From: an uncultured Pelagibacteraceae bacterium
GTDB lineage: Bacteria; Pseudomonadota; Alphaproteobacteria; Pelagibacterales; Pelagibacteraceae
Assembly: GCA_902560245.1 (NCBI GenBank)
Contig: CACELK010000002.1
Span: forward strand, 1-64,000
DNA: 64,000 nt
Direction: 5' to 3'
The position numbers and the translations under genes were made by a program. Below the pieces are notes generated by a model. The model made no database searches and was not told where the DNA came from. It saw only the letters and a program-made list of their open reading frames with translations. This document shows positions 501-64,000 of this stretch, in pieces; positions within the stretch are counted from its first letter, which is position 1, and each line of letters opens with the position of its first letter.

Positions 501-1541
501 ATGAAAATTGCCATTATAGGAGCTGGTTTTTTTGGAACTATTTGTGGAATAAGGTTATCTAATAAACACGAAGTCCATATATATGAAAAAAATAAAGATA
601 TTCTAAAAGGAGCATCATTAGCAAATCAATTAAGATTTCATTTAGGTTATCATTATCCTAGATCACAAAAAACTGTTAAAGAAATTAAAAAGCACTATAA
701 AGATTTTATAAAGTTTTTTGGTCAAAATATTTTTGGTAAAACAAAAAATTTTTATGGCATTTCTAAAGAAAAAAGTAAGGTTAGTTTCAAAAAGTACCTT
801 CTATTTCTTAAGAAAAATAATTTAAAATATAAAAAAATAAAAACAAAAAAATTTAGTAATAAAATAGAAGGCCAAATACTTTCCTATGAAAAAAATCTTA
901 ATTATTTCAAAGCAAGAAATATTATCAAAAGACAGCTTAAAAAAAATAAAGTAAAAATCTTTTATAATACAAAATTTAATAAAAAATTAATTAAAGATTA
1001 TGATAAAATAATCGTAGCTACTTATGATCAAAATAATACAGTTATTAATAGCTTGGGACTAAAAATTAAAAATAACTACAAGTATGAGCTTGTAGAAAAA
1101 ATTATAATTAAACTTCCAAAAAAATATAAAAATATAAGCTGTATGGTAATTGACGGAAAGTTTGTTTGCTTAGACCCATATATTGGTACGAAATATCATT
1201 TATTAAGCGATGTTAAAAATTCAAAATTGGAAGTTTTAGAAAATAAATATCCTAAATTTAAAAATAGAAACAAAAAATATCTTAATTCAGGTATTGTTAA
1301 AAATATTAAAATATCAAAATTCAAAAATTTCATAAAACATGGTTCTTTATATTTACCATTTCTCAAAAATTCTAAATATATTGGATCTTTTTTCGTCACT
1401 AGAGTAATCAAAATTCATAAAGAGAAAACTGATGAAAGGTTAAATGAAATTACAAAAGTAAATAAAAAAATAATTTCAATATTTTCAGGAAAATGGAATA
1501 CATGCATTGGAATAGCTAAAAACTTAGAAAATATTATATAA
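501..1541 (+). CDS. FAD-dependent oxidoreductase (DAO-like) of the sugar cluster
   Basis: The 346-residue protein begins with a Rossmann dinucleotide motif (IIGAGFFGTICG, residues 4-15) and an acidic residue ending the second strand (IYEKN), typical of FAD-binding amine-oxidase/DAO or UDP-galactopyranose-mutase-like folds. The rest is lysine- and asparagine-rich and I do not recognise a specific family. It overlaps the next gene by one base (ATG at 1541) and is followed by Gfo/Idh and DesII-type genes, so it probably oxidises or rearranges a nucleotide sugar or surface glycan. The gene is unusually A-rich even for this genome, as expected in a variable surface-polysaccharide locus. The substrate is unknown. 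Confidence 0.7.
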   Translation: MKIAIIGAGFFGTICGIRLSNKHEVHIYEKNKDILKGASLANQLRFHLGYHYPRSQKTVKEIKKHYKDFIKFFGQNIFGKTKNFYGISKEKSKVSFKKYLLFLKKNNLKYKKIKTKKFSNKIEGQILSYEKNLNYFKARNIIKRQLKKNKVKIFYNTKFNKKLIKDYDKIIVATYDQNNTVINSLGLKIKNNYKYELVEKIIIKLPKKYKNISCMVIDGKFVCLDPYIGTKYHLLSDVKNSKLEVLENKYPKFKNRNKKYLNSGIVKNIKISKFKNFIKHGSLYLPFLKNSKYIGSFFVTRVIKIHKEKTDERLNEITKVNKKIISIFSGKWNTCIGIAKNLENII

Positions 1542-2269
1542 TGATAAAAAAAAGTGTTGGCGTAATAGGATGTGGAAAGTGGGGCAAGATAATTATTCGA
1601 GAATTAAAAAAAATTTCGAATATAAAATTCATTTTCAGAAGTAAAGACAATTATAAAAACAATTTTAAAAAAATCGATTGGGTTTTTGTGCTAACACCAA
1701 ATGAAACTCATTATAAAATAGTTAAGTATTTTCTAAAAAAAAAAATAAATGTTTTTTGTGAAAAACCTCTAACTCTTGATGAGGCAAAAGCAAAAGAGCT
1801 TCTTAATATCTCAAAGAAAAAAGGTGTTAAAATGTATATTGATGACATTGAAAAATATAAAAAAAAAAAGTTAAAAATATCAAATGTTAAAAATTATATT
1901 TTAAGAACAAAAAAAGACAAAGGTTCTTCATTATCTTTGTTAAATAGGCTTGCATATCATGATTTATATTTACTAAATGACTTTATTTTAAATAAAAATA
2001 TAAGAAAAATTAATACTAGCATAAATCAAAAAAAACTTGAATTTCAAATAGTATTAAAAAATAAATGTATTTTTGAATTTTATTATAATATTGATAGTGA
2101 GTATAAAATTCATAAGATAAATAATACTAGATTTGACAAATTTAAAAATAATCCTGTTAAAGATATGTTATTGAATGTCATATATTCTAAAAGAAAAAAT
2201 TTTGATAAAAATAATTTAAAAGCCGTAAATTGTATTAAGTTAATTAATAGGATAAAAAAGAATATATGA
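1541..2269 (+). CDS. Gfo/Idh/MocA-family NAD(P)-dependent oxidoreductase, short
   Basis: An N-terminal Rossmann motif (GVIGCGKWGKI) and the family's EKP signature (FCEKPLTLDEAKAKELL, about residue 72) place this in the Gfo/Idh/MocA dehydrogenases, which oxidise or reduce sugar carbons with NAD(P). At 242 residues it is about 80-100 shorter than most members, and the C-terminal substrate domain looks reduced. It is translationally coupled at both ends: start overlapping the FAD oxidoreductase, stop overlapping the radical-SAM gene by 4 bp (ATGATAA). Inference: it acts on the same sugar nucleotide as its neighbours, for example reducing a 3-keto-dideoxysugar made by the DesII-like enzyme. Confidence 0.8.
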   Translation: MIKKSVGVIGCGKWGKIIIRELKKISNIKFIFRSKDNYKNNFKKIDWVFVLTPNETHYKIVKYFLKKKINVFCEKPLTLDEAKAKELLNISKKKGVKMYIDDIEKYKKKKLKISNVKNYILRTKKDKGSSLSLLNRLAYHDLYLLNDFILNKNIRKINTSINQKKLEFQIVLKNKCIFEFYYNIDSEYKIHKINNTRFDKFKNNPVKDMLLNVIYSKRKNFDKNNLKAVNCIKLINRIKKNI

Positions 2270-3786
2270 TAAATAATAAAATTATTGAAAATTGTAAAGA
2301 CGAACTAAAAAATTATTACAATAATTATATAAAAGAAAAAAAATCGAATAATATCTATTTAGAAGATAAATATTTTAATTATTTTCTTCAAATTATTGAT
2401 CGTTTTTCAAAACAACCTCTTTCTACTCAAGAAGAAATATTTAATTTTTTAGGTTTGTCTAATAAAAATGATTTAGTTTTTTTAAATGATGCAATTAGAG
2501 CTTCTTCTATTGCTCAAAATTTAATTACAAAATCTGGGATAGGAAAAAAATATTGGAATACTATAATGCCTTTTGCAAAAACAACAGAACAAACTCTAGA
2601 GAATAATTATCAATTTCCACAAAGAATAGCTCTTTTTCCAGGAGTCTCGTGCATGTTCTATTGTGGTTTTTGTGGAAGAAATCAATCAGAGAAATATCCA
2701 ACTTCTATATTAAATGAATCAAAATTAACTTTTGATAAACTTTTCTCTCAAATTCGAAATTCAACAGCCCTATCTATTTCTGGAGGGTTGGAACCATTAA
2801 CAAACCCAAAAATAGGTGAGATTATTTCATCAGCAAGAAATAATGATATCAGAGTTCCGTTAATTACAAATGGTTACTCTTTAACAGAAAACTTTCTTAA
2901 AAGAACTCCAGGTATTTGGGATTTGGACTCCTTAAGAATTTCTCTTTATGGTATTGATAAGGAAAGTTACAAATTTATAACTAGAGTTGAAAAAAGTTTT
3001 GATATTGTTAAAAAAAATACAATTTCCTTTTTAAAATTAAGAAATATTAATAATAAAAATTTAAAATTTGGATTTAATTTTATAGTAATTCCAGAAAACG
3101 TAAATCAATTGAATGGTATTTTAGAGTTAGTTAAAAGTATTAATGAAAATGTAGATAATGGAAGAGGTGTAGATTTTTTGACTTTGAGAGATGATTACCA
3201 AAGTGTAACGGGAAATGACGATAAGTTTGATGAAGAAAGAAAATATAAATTAAGTACCAAAATGGATACAAAGGTAAGGAATATATTAATAGATAAACTT
3301 GGAGAGTTTGAAATAAATAAATCTAAATTATGCCCAGAGTTATATGTAGATTATGGGTATTCTTTGGAAGCGCTCTATAAAAATATTTTTGATAAACAGT
3401 TGATCAAAGTAACTCATAAGGAAATGAGAAATTTTGGGTTTACTCAAATGTCAGTTGCTATAGATCTATATGGAGATGTTTTTGTATACAGGGAGGCTGG
3501 ATTTTTAAACAGAAAAGGAAATAAAAAATTCATAATCGGAAGAATTAATAAAAATAATAGCTTAGAAGATGTTATTAAAAAATTTTTAAAAAATAAAAAA
3601 CCAATTAATTATGAATTTCAAGATGAACGTTTTATGGACTCATTTGATCACGTACTTACATCATTAGTAAATCAAGCCGAGAAAGACCAAAAATTTGATA
3701 TTCCTTTCAAAAAAGGCCCAATACTAGGAAGAATAATGAGCAATGAAATAAACTTAGGAAACAATTGGTATACAGAAAAAAATTAG
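2266..3786 (+). CDS. DesII-family radical SAM deaminase (dTDP-4-amino-4,6-dideoxyglucose ammonia-lyase-like)
   Basis: The 506-residue protein carries the radical-SAM cluster motif CX3CX2C (CMFYCGFC, about residue 130) and an SGGLEPLTNP motif. As I recall the DesII sequence from desosamine biosynthesis, several blocks match in order: YW-N-T-x-x-P before the cluster, LRISLYGID, GFNFIVIPEN, the DFLTLRDDYQ segment, DLYGDVFVYREAGF, and FMDSFDHVLT near the end. DesII deaminates dTDP-4-amino-4,6-dideoxy-D-glucose to the 3-keto-4,6-dideoxy sugar. Length is close to DesII (about 485). No DesI-like 4-aminotransferase is visible in the window, but an RfbB (first step) lies at 15.4 kb. The exact substrate is inferred from family only. 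Confidence 0.85.
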   Translation: MINNKIIENCKDELKNYYNNYIKEKKSNNIYLEDKYFNYFLQIIDRFSKQPLSTQEEIFNFLGLSNKNDLVFLNDAIRASSIAQNLITKSGIGKKYWNTIMPFAKTTEQTLENNYQFPQRIALFPGVSCMFYCGFCGRNQSEKYPTSILNESKLTFDKLFSQIRNSTALSISGGLEPLTNPKIGEIISSARNNDIRVPLITNGYSLTENFLKRTPGIWDLDSLRISLYGIDKESYKFITRVEKSFDIVKKNTISFLKLRNINNKNLKFGFNFIVIPENVNQLNGILELVKSINENVDNGRGVDFLTLRDDYQSVTGNDDKFDEERKYKLSTKMDTKVRNILIDKLGEFEINKSKLCPELYVDYGYSLEALYKNIFDKQLIKVTHKEMRNFGFTQMSVAIDLYGDVFVYREAGFLNRKGNKKFIIGRINKNNSLEDVIKKFLKNKKPINYEFQDERFMDSFDHVLTSLVNQAEKDQKFDIPFKKGPILGRIMSNEINLGNNWYTEKN

Positions 3787-10804: not shown

Positions 10805-11824
10805 ATGTTAAACTGGGGCATAATAGGTCTAGGAAGAATCGCAAATAATTTTGCTTTAGGAATTGAAGATGTTAGCAATGCAAATCTTTTAGGCATAGCC
10901 AGTAAAACAGAAAAGAAATTATTAGATTTCAAAAAAAAATTTAATATTGATGAAAGATATTGCTTCTCTAATTATGAAGATCTAATTACGTGCAATAAAA
11001 TTGATATTATTTATATAGCTTTACCTCATAATTTTCATTTTAAGTGGATAATGAAATGTTTAGAAAACAATAAAAAAGTTTTGACAGAAAAACCTGCGAC
11101 TACATCTTTAGCGGATATGAAAAAAATTAATGAAAAATTAAATAACAAAAAAATTTTTTTTGCTGAAGGTTTTATGTATCGCTTTCATCCACAAACATCA
11201 AAAGTAGTTTCATTAATTAAAAGTAAAGAAATTGGTGAGTTGATTTCTATGGAGTCAAATTTTGGAATGAATCTAATGGAAAAAAGAAATATATTTGGTT
11301 TTAAAAAAATTAAATTTAATAAAGAAAGCAGATTGTTTAACAAGTCTTTAGCTGGTGGTTGTATATTTGATCTTGGTTGTTATCCCTCATCTTTTAGTAT
11401 TTTAATTGCTAAGTTAAAAGACCCAAATAATTTAGAGATAGATTTAAAGAATTCTAAAATTGAGTATTCCTCAACAGATGTTGATATTGATTCGTATACA
11501 GAGATTAATTTTTCAAATAATTTTAAATCTTATGTAAGTTGTTCATTTAAAAGAAATTTAGGTAAAAAAACAAAAATAATAGGATCAAAGGGATCAATTG
11601 AAATTGAAGATAGTTGGCATTGTTCACCAATGAAAATAACAGTCAATAATAAAAAAATTTTTGAGGATAAGTTTGTTTTTCCAAATATTTTTTCTTATGA
11701 AATTGAGTCAATAGTAAATTCAATATTAAATAATAAAACTGAACCAGAATATCCAGCTATTTCAAGACATGAAAGTGAATTAAATATTAAGATATTAAAC
11801 AATTGGATAAATAAAAAAAATTGA
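10805..11824 (+). CDS. Gfo/Idh/MocA-family oxidoreductase
   Basis: The full-length (339-residue) dehydrogenase has the Rossmann motif GIIGLGRIANNF at the N-terminus, TEKPATTSLADM (the EKP signature, about residue 96) and FAEGFMYRFHPQ, a segment seen in the 1,5-anhydrofructose reductase/dihydrodiol dehydrogenase-like branch. The C-terminal alpha/beta domain is intact, in contrast to the short paralogue at 1541. It is predicted to oxidise or reduce a sugar or sugar nucleotide using NAD(P) within the surface-glycan locus. A 73-bp gap precedes it, so it may have its own promoter. Confidence 0.85.
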   Translation: MLNWGIIGLGRIANNFALGIEDVSNANLLGIASKTEKKLLDFKKKFNIDERYCFSNYEDLITCNKIDIIYIALPHNFHFKWIMKCLENNKKVLTEKPATTSLADMKKINEKLNNKKIFFAEGFMYRFHPQTSKVVSLIKSKEIGELISMESNFGMNLMEKRNIFGFKKIKFNKESRLFNKSLAGGCIFDLGCYPSSFSILIAKLKDPNNLEIDLKNSKIEYSSTDVDIDSYTEINFSNNFKSYVSCSFKRNLGKKTKIIGSKGSIEIEDSWHCSPMKITVNNKKIFEDKFVFPNIFSYEIESIVNSILNNKTEPEYPAISRHESELNIKILNNWINKKN

Positions 11825-11855: not shown

Positions 11856-12914
11856 ATGAAACTTAATCCTAAATTAGTAAATATTATAAAGTCGAATATT
11901 GGAATTTTTTTATTTATTACTTTGTTTATAATTTTATATAGAGATTTTTTATATACATATAAAATTCAATTAGAACAATCTATTCCTTATTATCTTTATC
12001 AAAATCACATAGAATATTATCTCACAGGAGATAAACAGTATGATGTTGAGGCTCCAGCAAACCTTAGATTTTTAGGTTTATGGCTTCAATTCGCAATTTA
12101 TAAAATTTTTCCGTGTATAGAGCTATCAAGAGAAATTAATTTCCCAGTACCATATGATAATTATATTTGCACAACCTTCAGCAGTGCGCTCATGAATTAT
12201 TTTTGTTTGTGTAGTTTTTTATCTTTAAGTTTCTTATATTCTTACAAAAAATTGCGTCTGGATTTACCTACAAGTATTTTGACCTCAATGCTCTCATACA
12301 TATTTATTTCATATGTTGAGGCTTTTACGCTAGATAGACTAGCAGTTTTATATTTTTTGATAGTTTTATACTTTTTAGACAATTTTAAACTTGGGTTAAT
12401 ATTAATAGTTTTAGCAGCGTTTGTTAATGAAAAAGTAGTTTATATGCTTTCTGTATTATTTTTTATAAGATTTTTTTTAAATAAAAAAAAAGAATATCTC
12501 CCCTTTTTTATTTCATCAGTAGTTAGTTCTGTATTAGTTATTATGACTTTTGTTTTTTACGCTTTTGTATTAAACCATGGTTATCATGAAAGCGATCTTG
12601 GTTCTGAAGGAATTTATAACAAATTCTTTACCCACGGGTTTGCAAGAATTTATTCTATGTTCATGTTTAGACAGGGTTATTCAAATAGTGTAATTCCACT
12701 TGCATTTACATTATTGCCATATCTTTTATCTTTTTTTATAAAATTAAAAAAATCAAAATACTTTTTTTCTAAACTGGATATTTTGATACCTATTTCTTTG
12801 TTACTTTTTACGGCAGGTGCAAGCATGGAGCAAACTGGTCGATATGTGATGCTGTCAATGCCATTGTGGTTGCCAATTCTTTCACAACAAGTTATATTTT
12901 TCTTAAGGAGATAG
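11856..12914 (+). CDS. Polytopic membrane protein of the polysaccharide locus, unknown function
   Basis: The 352-residue protein has about nine or ten predicted membrane helices. A long periplasmic-looking loop after the first helix carries acidic and aromatic residues (HIEYYLTGDKQYDVEAPANL). Hydrophobic helices then alternate with short loops, including LSYIFISYVEAFTLDRL and AAFVNEKVVYML. The position between a Gfo/Idh dehydrogenase and a DPM1-type GT2, and the acidic first loop, fit a GT-C-type glycosyltransferase or a polymerase/ligase-like protein. I do not recognise a family and the role is inferred from context. Confidence 0.6.
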   Translation: MKLNPKLVNIIKSNIGIFLFITLFIILYRDFLYTYKIQLEQSIPYYLYQNHIEYYLTGDKQYDVEAPANLRFLGLWLQFAIYKIFPCIELSREINFPVPYDNYICTTFSSALMNYFCLCSFLSLSFLYSYKKLRLDLPTSILTSMLSYIFISYVEAFTLDRLAVLYFLIVLYFLDNFKLGLILIVLAAFVNEKVVYMLSVLFFIRFFLNKKKEYLPFFISSVVSSVLVIMTFVFYAFVLNHGYHESDLGSEGIYNKFFTHGFARIYSMFMFRQGYSNSVIPLAFTLLPYLLSFFIKLKKSKYFFSKLDILIPISLLLFTAGASMEQTGRYVMLSMPLWLPILSQQVIFFLRR

Positions 12915-14035: not shown

Positions 14036-14112
14036 GGCGGGGTAGCTCAGTTGGTTAGAGCGCGGGACTCATAAGCCCGAGGTCAGTGGTTCGATCCCAC
14101 TTCCCGCTACCA
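14036..14112 (+). tRNA. tRNA-Met (anticodon CAU), elongator type
   Basis: The 77-nt cloverleaf is complete. The acceptor GGCGGGG pairs with TCCCGCT (G1-U72 and G7-U66 wobbles). The D stem is GCTC/GAGC, the T stem AGTGG/CCACT with loop TTCGATC, the discriminator is A, and CCA is encoded at 14110-14112. The anticodon loop CTCATAA places CAT at 14070-14072. The absence of the initiator's C1-A72 mismatch and of three G-C pairs next to the loop argues for elongator tRNA-Met. The anticodon stem CGGGA/GCCCG has an A31-G39 mismatch next to the loop. A CAU tRNA-Ile2 is an alternative, but the overall shape is that of tRNA-Met. Confidence 0.93.
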
Positions 14113-14121
14113 TAATTTCTT

Positions 14122-14754
14122 TTAGGTTTTTTTGTAAGTTTTATTAATTTCTGCTTTTATCAATCGAGTAATCGAACCAATAAAACTTCTTTTGATTATG
14201 ATTGGTTTATTATTTTTAATCTCTACCCTATATTCGGTATTTTTTTTAAGTGGTAATCTCCAACTTTTGCCGTATAAAAATTTTAAAAGTGATTTGGGTT
14301 TGTTTGGTATTGATAATGATTTGAATTCTTTGTGTTTTCGAATTGGAAAAATCATATTATTTGGAAAATGTAAGGCAAAGTTACCATCATTAATATGTGC
14401 AAGCCAGTTATGTCTTTCGATAATAAAATTTTTCTTAAAATTTTGAGTAAAAAAATAAAAATCTATAAAACTTGAAATATTATTTTTTTTTTTAATGAAT
14501 TGGGCAAAATATTTATTAGATACTTTTTTGTTAAATTTAAAAGTTTTATTTTGCATCATTATTTTTAAGACTTTATTTTTATCTTTAATATTAACCATAA
14601 TATCAATATCATCATCTCCAGGAATTATATTTTTTTCTCTTATAAGACCAAGTAGTGTCCCATAAAAAATAAAATGTTTAATATTCTTTAATAATGCTGA
14701 TACTTGAATAAGATTTTGAAAATTTAATTTTTGAATTTTTTTTATTTTAGTCAT
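14122..14754 (-). CDS. LicD-family protein (phosphocholine/nucleotidyltransferase-like)
   Basis: The 210-residue protein contains FYGTLLGLIREKNIIPGDDD followed by IDIMV, the hallmark of LicD/fukutin-type enzymes: a G-T-L-L-G-x-x-R segment, then G-D-D-D-I-D with the catalytic acidic pair. LicD transfers phosphocholine or a similar phospho-group to surface glycans. The C-terminal part is basic. It overlaps the upstream methyltransferase gene by 8 bp and is read opposite to the tRNA. The transferred group is unknown. A modification of surface polysaccharide is the likely job. Confidence 0.8.
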   Translation of the reverse strand: MTKIKKIQKLNFQNLIQVSALLKNIKHFIFYGTLLGLIREKNIIPGDDDIDIMVNIKDKNKVLKIMMQNKTFKFNKKVSNKYFAQFIKKKNNISSFIDFYFFTQNFKKNFIIERHNWLAHINDGNFALHFPNNMIFPIRKHKEFKSLSIPNKPKSLLKFLYGKSWRLPLKKNTEYRVEIKNNKPIIIKRSFIGSITRLIKAEINKTYKKT

Positions 14755-15385
14755 TAAATTTAAAAATCATTCTTGACAAATTTGGGTTATCACTTTTTAA
14801 AACTGATAGATTAATACCTGATTTTTCATAAATAATTTTAGAGCTTGTTTTTTTTAAGAATTTTTTCTTGAAAATTTTGGCATCAATAATTCTTCTGAAA
14901 TGACCTTTTTCATATTCACAGACTGTATTATGAGTTTTTTTGGCAAAATTTTTAAAAATTTTATCTTTGTTATTTCTAAATTCAAAAAATACAAATGTTC
15001 CTTTTTTTTTTGATTTTTTAATCAAGTTTATCAAGCTATTTTCTAAATTTTTATCTATAGCATGCAGGAAAAATCTACAATAAATTATATCAAATTTTTC
15101 TCTAAGTAGATTTTTTCCAATATTAAATCTTTTAAATTTTATATTTTTAATTTTATATTTTGAGTTTTTTTGTATTGCTTTTTTAGATATGTCGATGCCT
15201 GTAACTTTGAAACCTTTCTTACTAAAAAAGAAACTATCTCTACCATTTCCACAACCGATATCTAAAATAGTATTTTTTTTTAAATTTATTCTTTTTAAAG
15301 TAAAACTTGCAAAACTTGACTCTTTTTTGATAAGTCCTTTTTTATAAAATTTATCCCAATATTTCGTAAGAATTTTATCTTTCAT
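14747..15385 (-). CDS. Class I SAM-dependent methyltransferase
   Basis: The 212-residue protein has the Rossmann methyltransferase motif I TILDIGCGNGRDSFFFSKKG (about residues 38-57), motif II VTGIDISKKA, and a motif IV-like stretch FDIIYCRFFLHAI. No membrane segment is present. Its place between RfbB and LicD genes on the minus strand suggests a sugar or glycan O/N/C-methyltransferase, but the substrate is not visible in the sequence. Confidence 0.85.
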   Translation of the reverse strand: MKDKILTKYWDKFYKKGLIKKESSFASFTLKRINLKKNTILDIGCGNGRDSFFFSKKGFKVTGIDISKKAIQKNSKYKIKNIKFKRFNIGKNLLREKFDIIYCRFFLHAIDKNLENSLINLIKKSKKKGTFVFFEFRNNKDKIFKNFAKKTHNTVCEYEKGHFRRIIDAKIFKKKFLKKTSSKIIYEKSGINLSVLKSDNPNLSRMIFKFND

Positions 15386-15395
15386 TTTTTTTGAT

Positions 15396-16421
15396 TTATT
15401 TTTTTAAACCAATTCTTTTCGTCGCATCTTTTAAGTTAATAGAAGAGTAGTAATCAATATTATTTAGATACCACATGAAAGTTTTTTTTAAACCATTCGA
15501 AAGGTTTGTCTTTGGTCTCCATTTTAATTCATTAATTAACTTATTACTATTCAATGCATATCTTACATCATGACCAGGTCTATCTTTTACAAATTTTATT
15601 TTCACATTTTTTCCTAATTTAATTCTTGTTTTTGCAATTTTTATTAATTTTTTACATATTTCTAAATTAATTTCGTTTTTATTTGATCCAATATTATAAA
15701 AATTACCAGTTTTACCTTTTTTAAAAATTTTTAATAAAGCTTCACAATGATCATTAACATATATCCATTCTCTTGAATTTTTACCTTTTCCATAAATAGG
15801 TAGTTTTTTATTATTTATGATATTAAATATAAGTTTTGGTATTAATTTTTCTGGGTGTTGTTTTGGTCCATAATTATTTGAGCAGTTTGTGACGATAGCA
15901 GGAATATTGTAGGTTCTGACGTAGGAATAAACCAAATGATCAGAAGAAGCTTTACTTGCGGCATATGGAGAGCTTGGTTTGTAAGAATAATTTTCGTCGC
16001 TTCTTCCATTTAAAACATCTCCAAAAACTTCATCGGTAGAAATATGTATTAATTTAGTATTAAATTTTTTTGAATATTTTTTAAATACTTCTAACAAACA
16101 ATAAACGCCTAGTATATTGCTTTTAATAAAATTTTTAGGATTGTCTATAGATCTGTCTACATGCGTTTCGGCAGCTAAGTTAAATACTCCAGATGGTCTA
16201 AATTTTCGAAAAATTTTTTCTAACTTATTTTTATTATTTAGATCACATTGAATAAATTTATATTTTTTATTTTTCTTAAATTCTTTAGTATTATAAAAAT
16301 TTGAGGAGTAAGTGATTTTATCTAGATTAATTACTTCAAATTTTTTATTAAGCAATAAATCAATAAGATTACTCCCAATAAAACCTAAGCCTCCAGTTAC
16401 TATAATTCTTTTTTTGACCAT
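15396..16421 (-). CDS. rfbB: dTDP-glucose 4,6-dehydratase
   Basis: This is an extended short-chain dehydrogenase (341 residues) with the GGLGFIGSN NAD-binding loop, AAETHVDRSIDNP, HISTDEVFGD (the T-D-E catalytic trio of the dehydratase) and YAASKASSDH with the active-site YxxxK. These motifs together are specific for RfbB/RmlB, which converts dTDP-D-glucose to dTDP-4-keto-6-deoxyglucose, the common precursor of 6-deoxy- and dideoxy-sugars. No rfbA, rfbC or rfbD is in the window. It could supply the substrate chain that ends in the DesII-like enzyme at 2266. Confidence 0.93.
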   Translation of the reverse strand: MVKKRIIVTGGLGFIGSNLIDLLLNKKFEVINLDKITYSSNFYNTKEFKKNKKYKFIQCDLNNKNKLEKIFRKFRPSGVFNLAAETHVDRSIDNPKNFIKSNILGVYCLLEVFKKYSKKFNTKLIHISTDEVFGDVLNGRSDENYSYKPSSPYAASKASSDHLVYSYVRTYNIPAIVTNCSNNYGPKQHPEKLIPKLIFNIINNKKLPIYGKGKNSREWIYVNDHCEALLKIFKKGKTGNFYNIGSNKNEINLEICKKLIKIAKTRIKLGKNVKIKFVKDRPGHDVRYALNSNKLINELKWRPKTNLSNGLKKTFMWYLNNIDYYSSINLKDATKRIGLKK

Positions 16422-16472
16422 TATTTAAATTTATATATATATTCATTTATTTATATACTAAATAAATTATCA

Positions 16473-17366
16473 ATGAATAATCTTAACGATTTAACAGTAA
16501 TTATTGTTACATACAAAACAAAAGAGGAAATTTTATTTAACTGCATAAATTCAATAAAAAAAGAAATAAACATTATTAATGTTGAAAATTCAAGCGATGA
16601 GAATCATAAGAAAAAAATAGAAAACAAATATGACAATGTAAAAGTTATTCTTTCTGGTAGAAATTTGGGCTATGGATCTGCAAATAACTTAGGTTTACAG
16701 AATGTTAAAACCCGATATGTTCTCATTTCTAATCCAGATGTAGAGTATAATAAAGATTTTTTCGATAAAATTACTTTTTATCTTAATGGAGATATTAACT
16801 TCGGCGTTATTGGTCCATCTTATAATGATGAGACTATACATAAATCCTACGGAAGTCTTGATGGAACTATAATAAAAGATGAATTTGATAAATATTTTCT
16901 TAAAGAAGTTGGTTATGTAATTGGTTGTTCAATGTTATTAGATACAAAAAATATAAAAACAGATTCTTTTTTTGATGAAAATTTTTTCTTATATTTTGAA
17001 GAAGCAGATTTTTGCAGAAGAGTTAAAATGTCTGGAGGTAAGGTATTTAATTCGTCAAGGCTACTTTTAACTCATTTAGGAAATCAAGGTTCAACTTCAA
17101 CAAATCCTAAATACGAAATCGAGTCTGAAATGATTAGAAGTTGGCATTGGATGTGGTCAACTTTTTATTATCACAAAAAACATAATGGATATTTTAAAGC
17201 ATTTTTTTTGATGTTTGGCAAATTATTACGTTCATTTTGTAAAATGATAATATTTAGTTTTTTTTATAATAAAAAAAAAAAATTAATGTATTACGCAAGA
17301 TTTTCTGGACTACTGAATTCAATGATTGGAAGAAAATCTTGGTTTCGAATTGATAATCTCGAATAA
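16473..17366 (+). CDS. GT2 glycosyltransferase, paralogue of the one at 61927
   Basis: The 297-residue rhamnosyltransferase-like GT2 has VIIVTYKT at the N-terminus, NLGYGSANNLGL, SNPDVEYN, FEEADFCRRVK, and a C-terminal block WSTFYYHKKHNGYFKAFF with basic, membrane-associating residues. The C-terminal FYYHKKH-x-G block and the following hydrophobic region recur in the GT2 at 61927-62808, so the two are probable paralogues in two glycan clusters. It ends 1 bp before the convergent apt gene and closes the polysaccharide region. Confidence 0.85.
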   Translation: MNNLNDLTVIIVTYKTKEEILFNCINSIKKEINIINVENSSDENHKKKIENKYDNVKVILSGRNLGYGSANNLGLQNVKTRYVLISNPDVEYNKDFFDKITFYLNGDINFGVIGPSYNDETIHKSYGSLDGTIIKDEFDKYFLKEVGYVIGCSMLLDTKNIKTDSFFDENFFLYFEEADFCRRVKMSGGKVFNSSRLLLTHLGNQGSTSTNPKYEIESEMIRSWHWMWSTFYYHKKHNGYFKAFFLMFGKLLRSFCKMIIFSFFYNKKKKLMYYARFSGLLNSMIGRKSWFRIDNLE

Positions 17367-62811: not shown

Positions 62812-64000
62812 CTAAATTAATAGCTTTTTTTGAGACATAAATTTAGTAAATGTTTTTGATATAAAACCTAAATCTGATTTTGAGAGTCCTTGATGACAAC
62901 CTATTAACAAGCCATTTTTCATGACATTATTAGCTATGTTTTCACAAGCAAAGTGTTTTTTATAAGTTCTTCCCTTCATAACTGGTTGTCTTAAAATATT
63001 ACCTGTAAAAATAGTTCTTGTTTGTATTCTATTTTTTTCTAAAAAAATTTGGATTTCTTTTCGATTAAAATATTTATTTTCTTTTATCAGGATAGGGTAG
63101 GCAAGCCATGGGGTTTTAACACCTTTATATTGTTCTGGTAGGGTAAAAAACTTTGGATATTTTCCAAAAAATTTTTTAAGATATTCAAAATTTTTGTTTC
63201 TGGTTTTAATATTTTTTTTAAGTTTTTTTATTTGTTCTAAAGCAAATGCTGCTGACATTTCTGATGGCAAAAAATTATATCCTAAATCAGAGAATACATA
63301 TTTAGCATCATAATCAATTCCAGATATTTTTATATTAAATCTCTTCTCAATTTCTTCAGACTCATTAAATGTTGCGGAAGATCTTCCCCATCCTCTAAGC
63401 AATTTTGCTTTATTGTATAATTTAACATCATTAAAACAAACTATACCACCTGAACCAGCTCCATTTATAATGTGTGAAGCGTAAAAACTATTTGTTACTA
63501 CATCAGATAAATTGCCAGTATTCTTATTTTGAATTTTATACCCAATTGTATCTGCTGAATCCTCTATAACTTTTAATTTATATTTTTTAGCAATTTTTTT
63601 TATTTTTACCCAGTCTGCAATATTACCTAAAAGATTTGGAATCATTAAAGCAACAGTTTTTTTATTAATACATTTTTCTATTTGTTGTGGATCAGCAACA
63701 AATTTATTTTTTGAAACACCAATAAAATGGGGAATCAATCCAAGCTGATAAATGGGCGCTACAGTTGTGGAAAAAGTTAAATTTGGAGTAATAATTTCTG
63801 AACCTTTTTTAAAGTTGAATGAGGATATAGCTAGTAAATTTGCTGAGGAACCTGAATTAACCATTAGACCAAATTTTTTTCCAAAAATTTTAGCCACTTT
63901 TTTTTCCAGTTTCTTAACATTGGGACCATCTATGAGGTTTAAAGTATTTTTTTTTAATACTCTATTGACTGCATTAATCTCTTTGTTGTCATATACAGCT
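62812..64000 (-). CDS. DegT/RfbH/ColD-like B6-dependent sugar dehydratase (5' end outside window)
   Basis: The frame is open to the window edge, so the start is missing; an internal GTG at 63897 is not the real start. About 396 residues are visible. Aspartate-aminotransferase-fold elements include NSGSSANLLAISSF, IEDSADTIG (PLP aspartate) and LRGWGRSS. At the position of the PLP-binding lysine the sequence reads SFYASHIINGAGSGG, with His (codon 63472-63474) instead of Lys. This is the feature of RfbH/DdhC and ColD 3-dehydratases. The region where RfbH has iron-sulfur cysteines (after WGR) has none here, so it resembles ColD in that respect. Confidence 0.82.
   Translation of the reverse strand, partial: AVYDNKEINAVNRVLKKNTLNLIDGPNVKKLEKKVAKIFGKKFGLMVNSGSSANLLAISSFNFKKGSEIITPNLTFSTTVAPIYQLGLIPHFIGVSKNKFVADPQQIEKCINKKTVALMIPNLLGNIADWVKIKKIAKKYKLKVIEDSADTIGYKIQNKNTGNLSDVVTNSFYASHIINGAGSGGIVCFNDVKLYNKAKLLRGWGRSSATFNESEEIEKRFNIKISGIDYDAKYVFSDLGYNFLPSEMSAAFALEQIKKLKKNIKTRNKNFEYLKKFFGKYPKFFTLPEQYKGVKTPWLAYPILIKENKYFNRKEIQIFLEKNRIQTRTIFTGNILRQPVMKGRTYKKHFACENIANNVMKNGLLIGCHQGLSKSDLGFISKTFTKFMSQKKLLI

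Follow-up and report, generated by a model that had tools for sequence, protein, structure and literature searches.

DesII–Gfo/Idh loci of the lankamycin type have a role in chalcose formation. DesII itself is the TDP-4-amino-4,6-dideoxy-D-glucose ammonia-lyase of the Streptomyces venezuelae desosamine pathway, and the roles of its functional residues (the cluster cysteines, GGLE, R238/S240/Y242, D323, Y324, E408 and D456) have been described, with E408 proposed as the general base, a D456A mutant inactive and a flexible loop contacting the adenine of S-adenosylmethionine (SAM) (PMC11434129). The papers we searched have so far treated DesII as an antibiotic-pathway enzyme, and none tied it to SAR11 or to surface glycans; the most detailed study of Pelagibacterales O-chain clusters found does not mention DesII and, by its own statement, left the functions of the genes unanalysed (PMC11898729). 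Here we analysed a window of 64,000 nucleotides, bases 1–64000 of an 83.8 kb contig from a SAR11 (Pelagibacteraceae-type) assembly (G000; 1.06 Mb, 31 contigs, 84% complete; other G numbers denote compared genomes and L numbers compared loci). Near its start, three forward-strand open reading frames (ORFs), overlapping by 1 and 4 bases, encode a 346-amino-acid (aa) flavin adenine dinucleotide (FAD)-dependent oxidoreductase, a 242-aa Gfo/Idh dehydrogenase and a 506-aa DesII-like radical SAM protein (Table 1). We propose, with a confidence just short of even, that the core of this module is the two-enzyme unit of DesII-like protein and short Gfo/Idh, placed in accessory surface-glycan gene sets of some SAR11, in which C4 deamination would be followed by reduction of a 3-ketone.

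The 506-aa protein matched the NCBIfam family rSAM_desII (TIGR04426) with E = 1.8e-99 over profile positions 27–456, while the next family reached 52.9 bits; the Radical_SAM domain (PF04055) scored 39.2 bits. Using a PDB sequence search, we found DesII (8hzv/8hzy, E about 6e-68) as the sole clear match. The predicted structure (predicted local distance difference test score, pLDDT, 87.5) has the full-length three-domain fold of DesII and aligned with 8hzv_A over 465 residues (Z 44.4, root-mean-square deviation 2.7, 29% identity), with the next radical SAM enzyme at Z 20. Across 54 family sequences, the positions of C141/C145/C148, GGLE, R238/S240, D323, E408 and D456 (DesII numbering) were identical in 54/54, the Y242 position was conserved in all but one and the Y324 position was Tyr or Phe; the window protein retains all listed DesII catalytic residues, including Y242. 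The ORFs lie where the original prediction had put them, the motifs CMFYCGFC and SGGLEPLTNP (residues 172–181) are present, and the DesII, FAD and Gfo/Idh family assignments are far beyond chance.

The DesII equivalog cut-off set by NCBI for TIGR04426 is 450 bits. At 333.6 bits the window protein falls below it; full-length non-actinobacterial relatives scored 314–448, compared with 620.8–855.6 for five actinobacterial DesIIs tested. The cut-off separates the same two groups as a tree of the 54 sequences, in which 31 actinobacterial DesIIs and 23 others split with 100/100 support; because the tree has no outgroup and its root is arbitrary, the result is a split and not a rooted statement. The 23 comprise 17 SAR11 sequences forming one group (type A, including the window protein), 2 from a further SAR11 group (type B) and one each from Omnitrophota, Gloeocapsa, Luteitalea and Elusimicrobia. 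On this sequence comparison, the window protein is a member of a sister group and not DesII proper. The identity originally predicted, for which a place in the DesII clade was to be decisive, is therefore upheld as to homology, catalytic residues and fold, and set aside as to clade and cut-off. Type A also stands apart in the segment from D310 to D362, which spans 50–53 residues in type A only, versus 38–40 in the remaining 54-sequence family members; this segment takes in the flexible loop that contacts the SAM adenine in DesII and is partly of low confidence in the model. The Luteitalea homologue has a deoxyhypusine synthase-like gene some 2 kb upstream (L059:6558-7595).

The 242-aa protein contains the NAD-binding Rossmann domain of Gfo/Idh enzymes with its EKP motif, and E74 K75 P76 and Y139 H140 D141 are invariant in 15 homologues. 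Among 397 genomes of the order, the short Gfo was present in 8/8 type-A genomes and in 7/389 others (Fisher p=4.5e-13, with genomes treated as independent), and it lies next to, or less than 2 kb from, the DesII homologue in every uncut type-A locus. The tree of linked Gfos broadly mirrors that of DesII, and over 15 loci the distances of the two proteins correlate with r=0.90, the pattern that joint inheritance of the genes would produce. In two other phyla the partners are a single protein: DesII carries a fused N-terminal Gfo/Idh domain of about 370 aa in one Omnitrophota bacterium (L057:8780-11416, 867 aa) and one Gloeocapsa (L058:759-3479, 907 aa). The fused domains and the SAR11 short Gfo begin alike, with a GxG[KR]WGK-type sequence that is not found in the other Gfos compared, and a tree groups them together with modest support (92/83). 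In the Omnitrophota locus, the fusion gene overlaps one for a DegT aminotransferase that has its pyridoxal phosphate (PLP) lysine and scores best with LegC (252 bits), followed by PseC (227 bits) and DesI (170 bits). Of all the observations, this arrangement points most clearly to a single pathway of amination, radical deamination and ketone reduction and, judging from the aminotransferase match, the sugar may be a UDP-2-acetamido sugar. The SAR11 co-occurrence and the natural fusions argue for the functional tie between DesII and Gfo/Idh that the original prediction had drawn. A supposed 1938-aa fusion in G283 (L021) was rejected as an artefact of masked Ns.

The FAD enzyme behaves differently. 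Its DAO domain scores above the PF01266 cut-off of 27.9 bits, and its AlphaFold model (pLDDT 92) has the DAO fold, with 3dme, L-proline dehydrogenase, glycine oxidase and glycerol-3-phosphate (G3P) dehydrogenase as best matches (Z about 27), a broad likeness that points to no particular substrate. The order FAD–Gfo–DesII occurs in the window and in L047, L048, L049, L050 and L061, with other arrangements in L042, L043 and L044. No FAD gene was found across assemblies G278, G468 and G283, though DesII is present, and FAD and Gfo occur together without DesII in six genomes (G046, G426, G403, G428, G226 and G059). Gfo is therefore the fixed member, accompanied by DesII, by the FAD enzyme or by both, and the DAO-type flavoenzyme is an optional companion of Gfo/Idh proteins of this kind even where DesII is lacking. 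It had been cast as a partner acting on the same intermediate; it is not an obligate one. FAD and short Gfo genes without DesII overlap or almost touch at L134:6868-8627, L135:6333-8083, L136:6839-8604, L137:6751-8513, L138:6891-8694 and L140:7896-9673. At L022 (G017:C41:1554-2596), an FAD gene with several stops, read as two pieces, stands beside an intact DesII homologue.

We examined the neighbourhoods for a source of the sugar. In actinobacterial DesII loci, a DegT aminotransferase (DesI-type) overlaps DesII or lies less than 1.2 kb away in 28/31. In SAR11, PseB (UDP-GlcNAc 4,6-dehydratase) is immediately upstream of FAD–Gfo–DesII in L048, L049 and L061, 0.7 kb upstream in L050 and, in another subclade, directly after Gfo (L056); the copies scored were above the PseB cut-off. 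L048, L061 and G263 have DegT genes 8.5–10 kb upstream; the lysine is kept in the DegT proteins of G243 and G263, the latter of which is closest to PseC. Where PseB is adjacent, the substrate is probably a UDP-2-acetamido-4-amino-2,4,6-trideoxyhexose rather than dTDP-4-amino-4,6-dideoxyglucose. A wider version, possible but doubtful in our judgement, is that the non-antibiotic DesII branch deaminates PseC/LegC-type UDP-2-acetamido-4-amino-2,4,6-trideoxyhexoses and that the linked or fused Gfo/Idh then yields 2-acetamido-2,4,6-trideoxy sugars for surface glycans of SAR11, an abundant ocean bacterium; if true, 4-deoxy amino sugars would be made there by radical chemistry, a route that glycan biology is not known to use. 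NeuB-, HisC- and KdsB-like genes surround one SAR11 FAD–Gfo–DesII module (L018:3510-16662), a nonulosonic acid-like island.

In the proposed reaction, the [4Fe-4S] cluster would cleave SAM, and the resulting 5'-deoxyadenosyl radical would take hydrogen from C3 of an activated 4-amino-6-deoxyhexose. E410/D458 would take the proton of the C3 hydroxyl while ammonia departs from C4, and reduction of the enol radical would give a 3-keto-4-deoxy sugar. The short Gfo/Idh, working in the reductive direction with NAD(P)H, would then convert the 3-ketone to a 4,6-dideoxy sugar that may be destined for a surface glycan.

Several observations weigh against this proposal. DegT is adjacent in 0/17 type-A loci, several of whose contigs are cut close to the gene. 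No DegT 4-aminotransferase with the lysine was found in the window assembly (84% complete), and no DegT at all was found in assemblies G432 (84% complete) or G283 (92%). The DesI-like 4-aminotransferase that the original prediction calls for is accordingly missing from an assembly of a completeness that leaves its absence from the genome unproven; the sole DegT-family protein there is closest to RfbH, has His at the lysine column and is not an ordinary aminotransferase. PseB was not found in 6/9 type-A genomes (G000, G278, G468, G432, G283 and G017), and we rejected it as a universal supplier on that count. The missing 16% of the assembly and the contig end leave room for the window genome's sugar supply. 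At a threshold of E 0.1 the short Gfo matches no C-terminal Gfo domain model, whereas the full-length Gfo at window 10805-11824 does match one in the same scan. In the Gfo/Idh family an Asp is usual four residues before the conserved His; the short Gfo has Arg there, and with no C-terminal domain its catalysis may differ. The longer type-A lid loop may likewise mean a different substrate. Finally, DesII itself dehydrogenates a 4-hydroxy substrate, TDP-D-quinovose (PMC11434129).

That oxidation is the basis of the main rival, a radical SAM dehydrogenase acting on a 4-hydroxy nucleotide sugar. The C3 radical would become a 3-ketone with the C4 group kept, and re-reduction by Gfo/Idh would amount to a net C3 epimerisation without any 4-deoxy sugar. 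Such an enzyme would need no aminotransferase, in keeping with the three type-A assemblies that lack a Lys-bearing DegT, and only a ketoreductase partner, as found; the different length of the active-site lid would also fit. We nevertheless regard it as unlikely, though a serious contender, given that the residues proposed for ammonia elimination (E408 and D456) are invariant, that an aminotransferase gene overlaps the Omnitrophota fusion and that each turnover would cost one SAM. A radical diol dehydratase, removing the C4 hydroxyl directly from an NDP-hexose before Gfo/Idh reduces the 3-ketone, would similarly account for the missing adjacent aminotransferase while still needing the ketoreductase, and partial dehydration of TDP-D-fucose by DesII is cited in PMC11434129. 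We consider this improbable, because the computed DesII active site, all of whose residues the window protein retains, makes it energetically unfavourable for the quinovose radical to lose water.

The exact pathway first suggested for the window, in which the product of RfbB at 15.4 kb leads to dTDP-4-amino-4,6-dideoxyglucose, the DesII homologue deaminates this sugar and Gfo/Idh performs the reduction in a chalcose-type scheme, has in its favour that RfbB is genuine and that lankamycin-type actinobacterial loci hold DesI, DesII and Gfo/Idh together. However, there is no DesI in the assembly, RfbB is 11.6 kb from the module with neighbours that do not link the two, the protein lies under the equivalog score and outside the actinobacterial clade, and the adjacent dehydratase in relatives is PseB. 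The RfbB assignment stands, while a dTDP-glucose-derived substrate gains no specific support, and we judge this pathway quite improbable. It is highly improbable that the FAD enzyme and short Gfo/Idh are an oxidation–reduction pair of their own with the DesII homologue as a chance island neighbour: the six genomes with FAD and Gfo alone would suit that arrangement, but all type-A genomes among the 397 pair Gfo with DesII, even the three in which no FAD gene was found, linked Gfos broadly track the DesII tree and Gfo–DesII fusions exist elsewhere.

The window begins at the contig end, and the module therefore lies there too, with 500 known upstream bases that hold a cut SET-domain ORF; downstream is a dimethylglycine dehydrogenase-like gene (FAD and GcvT domains). 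We found no rRNA in the window or in the 20 kb beyond it, so that, within the limit set by the contig end, the module is not shown to sit in a classical O-chain cluster. Elsewhere in the window, a 352-aa ORF at 11856-12914 among glycosyltransferase genes had no Pfam or NCBIfam match, and a tRNA-Met followed by LicD, methyltransferase, RfbB and glycosyltransferase family 2 (GT2) genes (14036-17366) forms a second small glycan gene set beside a tRNA. A CDP-glucose 4,6-dehydratase is encoded at the right end of the same contig (L023:11785-12846; 329 bits, above cut-off); together with the RfbH-like protein, its sequence suggests a CDP-3,6-dideoxyhexose route in the window genome.

Table 1. Positions of the module, its predicted functional sites and other sugar genes in the window.
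Feature	Position	Strand	Basis or remark
FAD-dependent oxidoreductase, DAO fold (glycine/sarcosine oxidase and G3P dehydrogenase superfamily)	501..1541	+	PF01266 35.3 bits; optional module member
Short Gfo/Idh/MocA dehydrogenase, 242 aa, NAD(P)-binding domain, EKP and YHD motifs	1541..2269	+	PF01408 58.8 bits; constant partner of SAR11 type-A DesII homologues
DesII-like radical SAM enzyme, 506 aa	2266..3786	+	TIGR04426 333.6 bits, fold match to 8hzv, tree
CX3CX2C [4Fe-4S] motif CMFYCGFC, residues 129-136	2650..2673	+	DesII C141/C145/C148
GGLE SAM-binding motif, residues 173-176	2782..2793	+	DesII G187-E190
Adenine/lid loop, D310 to D362	3193..3351	+	Exceeds that of all other DesII-family members compared by about 10-15 residues; low pLDDT
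E410	3493..3495	+	DesII E408 (proposed general base)
D458	3637..3639	+	DesII D456 (D456A inactive)
RfbB, dTDP-glucose 4,6-dehydratase	15396..16421	-	TIGR01181 413.8 bits (cut-off 365.1); neighbours methyltransferase, LicD, GT2; possible, unproven supplier
DegT-family protein, RfbH/E1-dehydratase-like, His for PLP lysine	62812..63999	-	NF011936 305.7 bits; SFYASH; only PF01041 match in window assembly

The family is rare. It occurs in 10/397 genomes of the order, and the three-gene combination, which the original prediction did not recognise as a known one, is a recurrent but rare SAR11 module that is not unique to the window genome. No DesII-family copy was found in 398 genomes sampled from the phylum except in the window's own genome, and 214 Cyanobacteria and 193 Omnitrophota genomes held none beyond the one known in each. 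Searches of viral contigs and phages for relatives found none and PHROG gave no matches, leaving a phage origin unsupported; in plasmids, Streptomyces desII genes were the only matches.

These findings extend the DesII family to SAR11 surface-sugar gene sets and, rarely, to other phyla. It has a different constant partner there, and the natural fusions point to the next pathway step. The module offers a testable example of how radical sugar chemistry changes course once its aminotransferase partner has been lost or relocated, and it may provide a sugar that could change how phages or grazers recognise the cell.

Compared with known systems, the FAD protein shares its fold and FAD motif with glycine oxidase, sarcosine oxidase and G3P dehydrogenase, yet it is at most 16% identical to them in structural alignments and sits in a sugar island. 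The PseB–PseC and LegB–LegC pathways to UDP-2-acetamido-4-amino-2,4,6-trideoxyhexoses are linked to the family by PseB, which in five loci is a direct neighbour or less than 1 kb away, and by PseC-/LegC-like aminotransferase genes near some SAR11 modules and overlapping the Omnitrophota fusion gene, although PseB was not found in the window assembly; we know of no step in these pathways that uses a radical SAM deaminase. With DesII, the window protein has in common the three-domain fold, CX3CX2C, GGLE, the ribose motifs and the E408/D456 equivalents. It differs in being about 30% identical, with a longer lid loop and an extra C-terminal stretch (LGNxWY), and in having no adjacent DesI, another partner gene and a glycan instead of an antibiotic setting. 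Lankamycin/chalcose-type loci (for example, S. griseofuscus pSGRIFU1, with DesI, DesII and Gfo/Idh) differ from SAR11 in that their Gfo, full-length at about 325 aa, does not have the GxG[KR]WGK motif, and in that the locus contains DesI and macrolide genes. They nonetheless resemble the SAR11 module in combining DesII and Gfo/Idh in one sugar locus, and by analogy it is plausible that both follow the same two-step logic.

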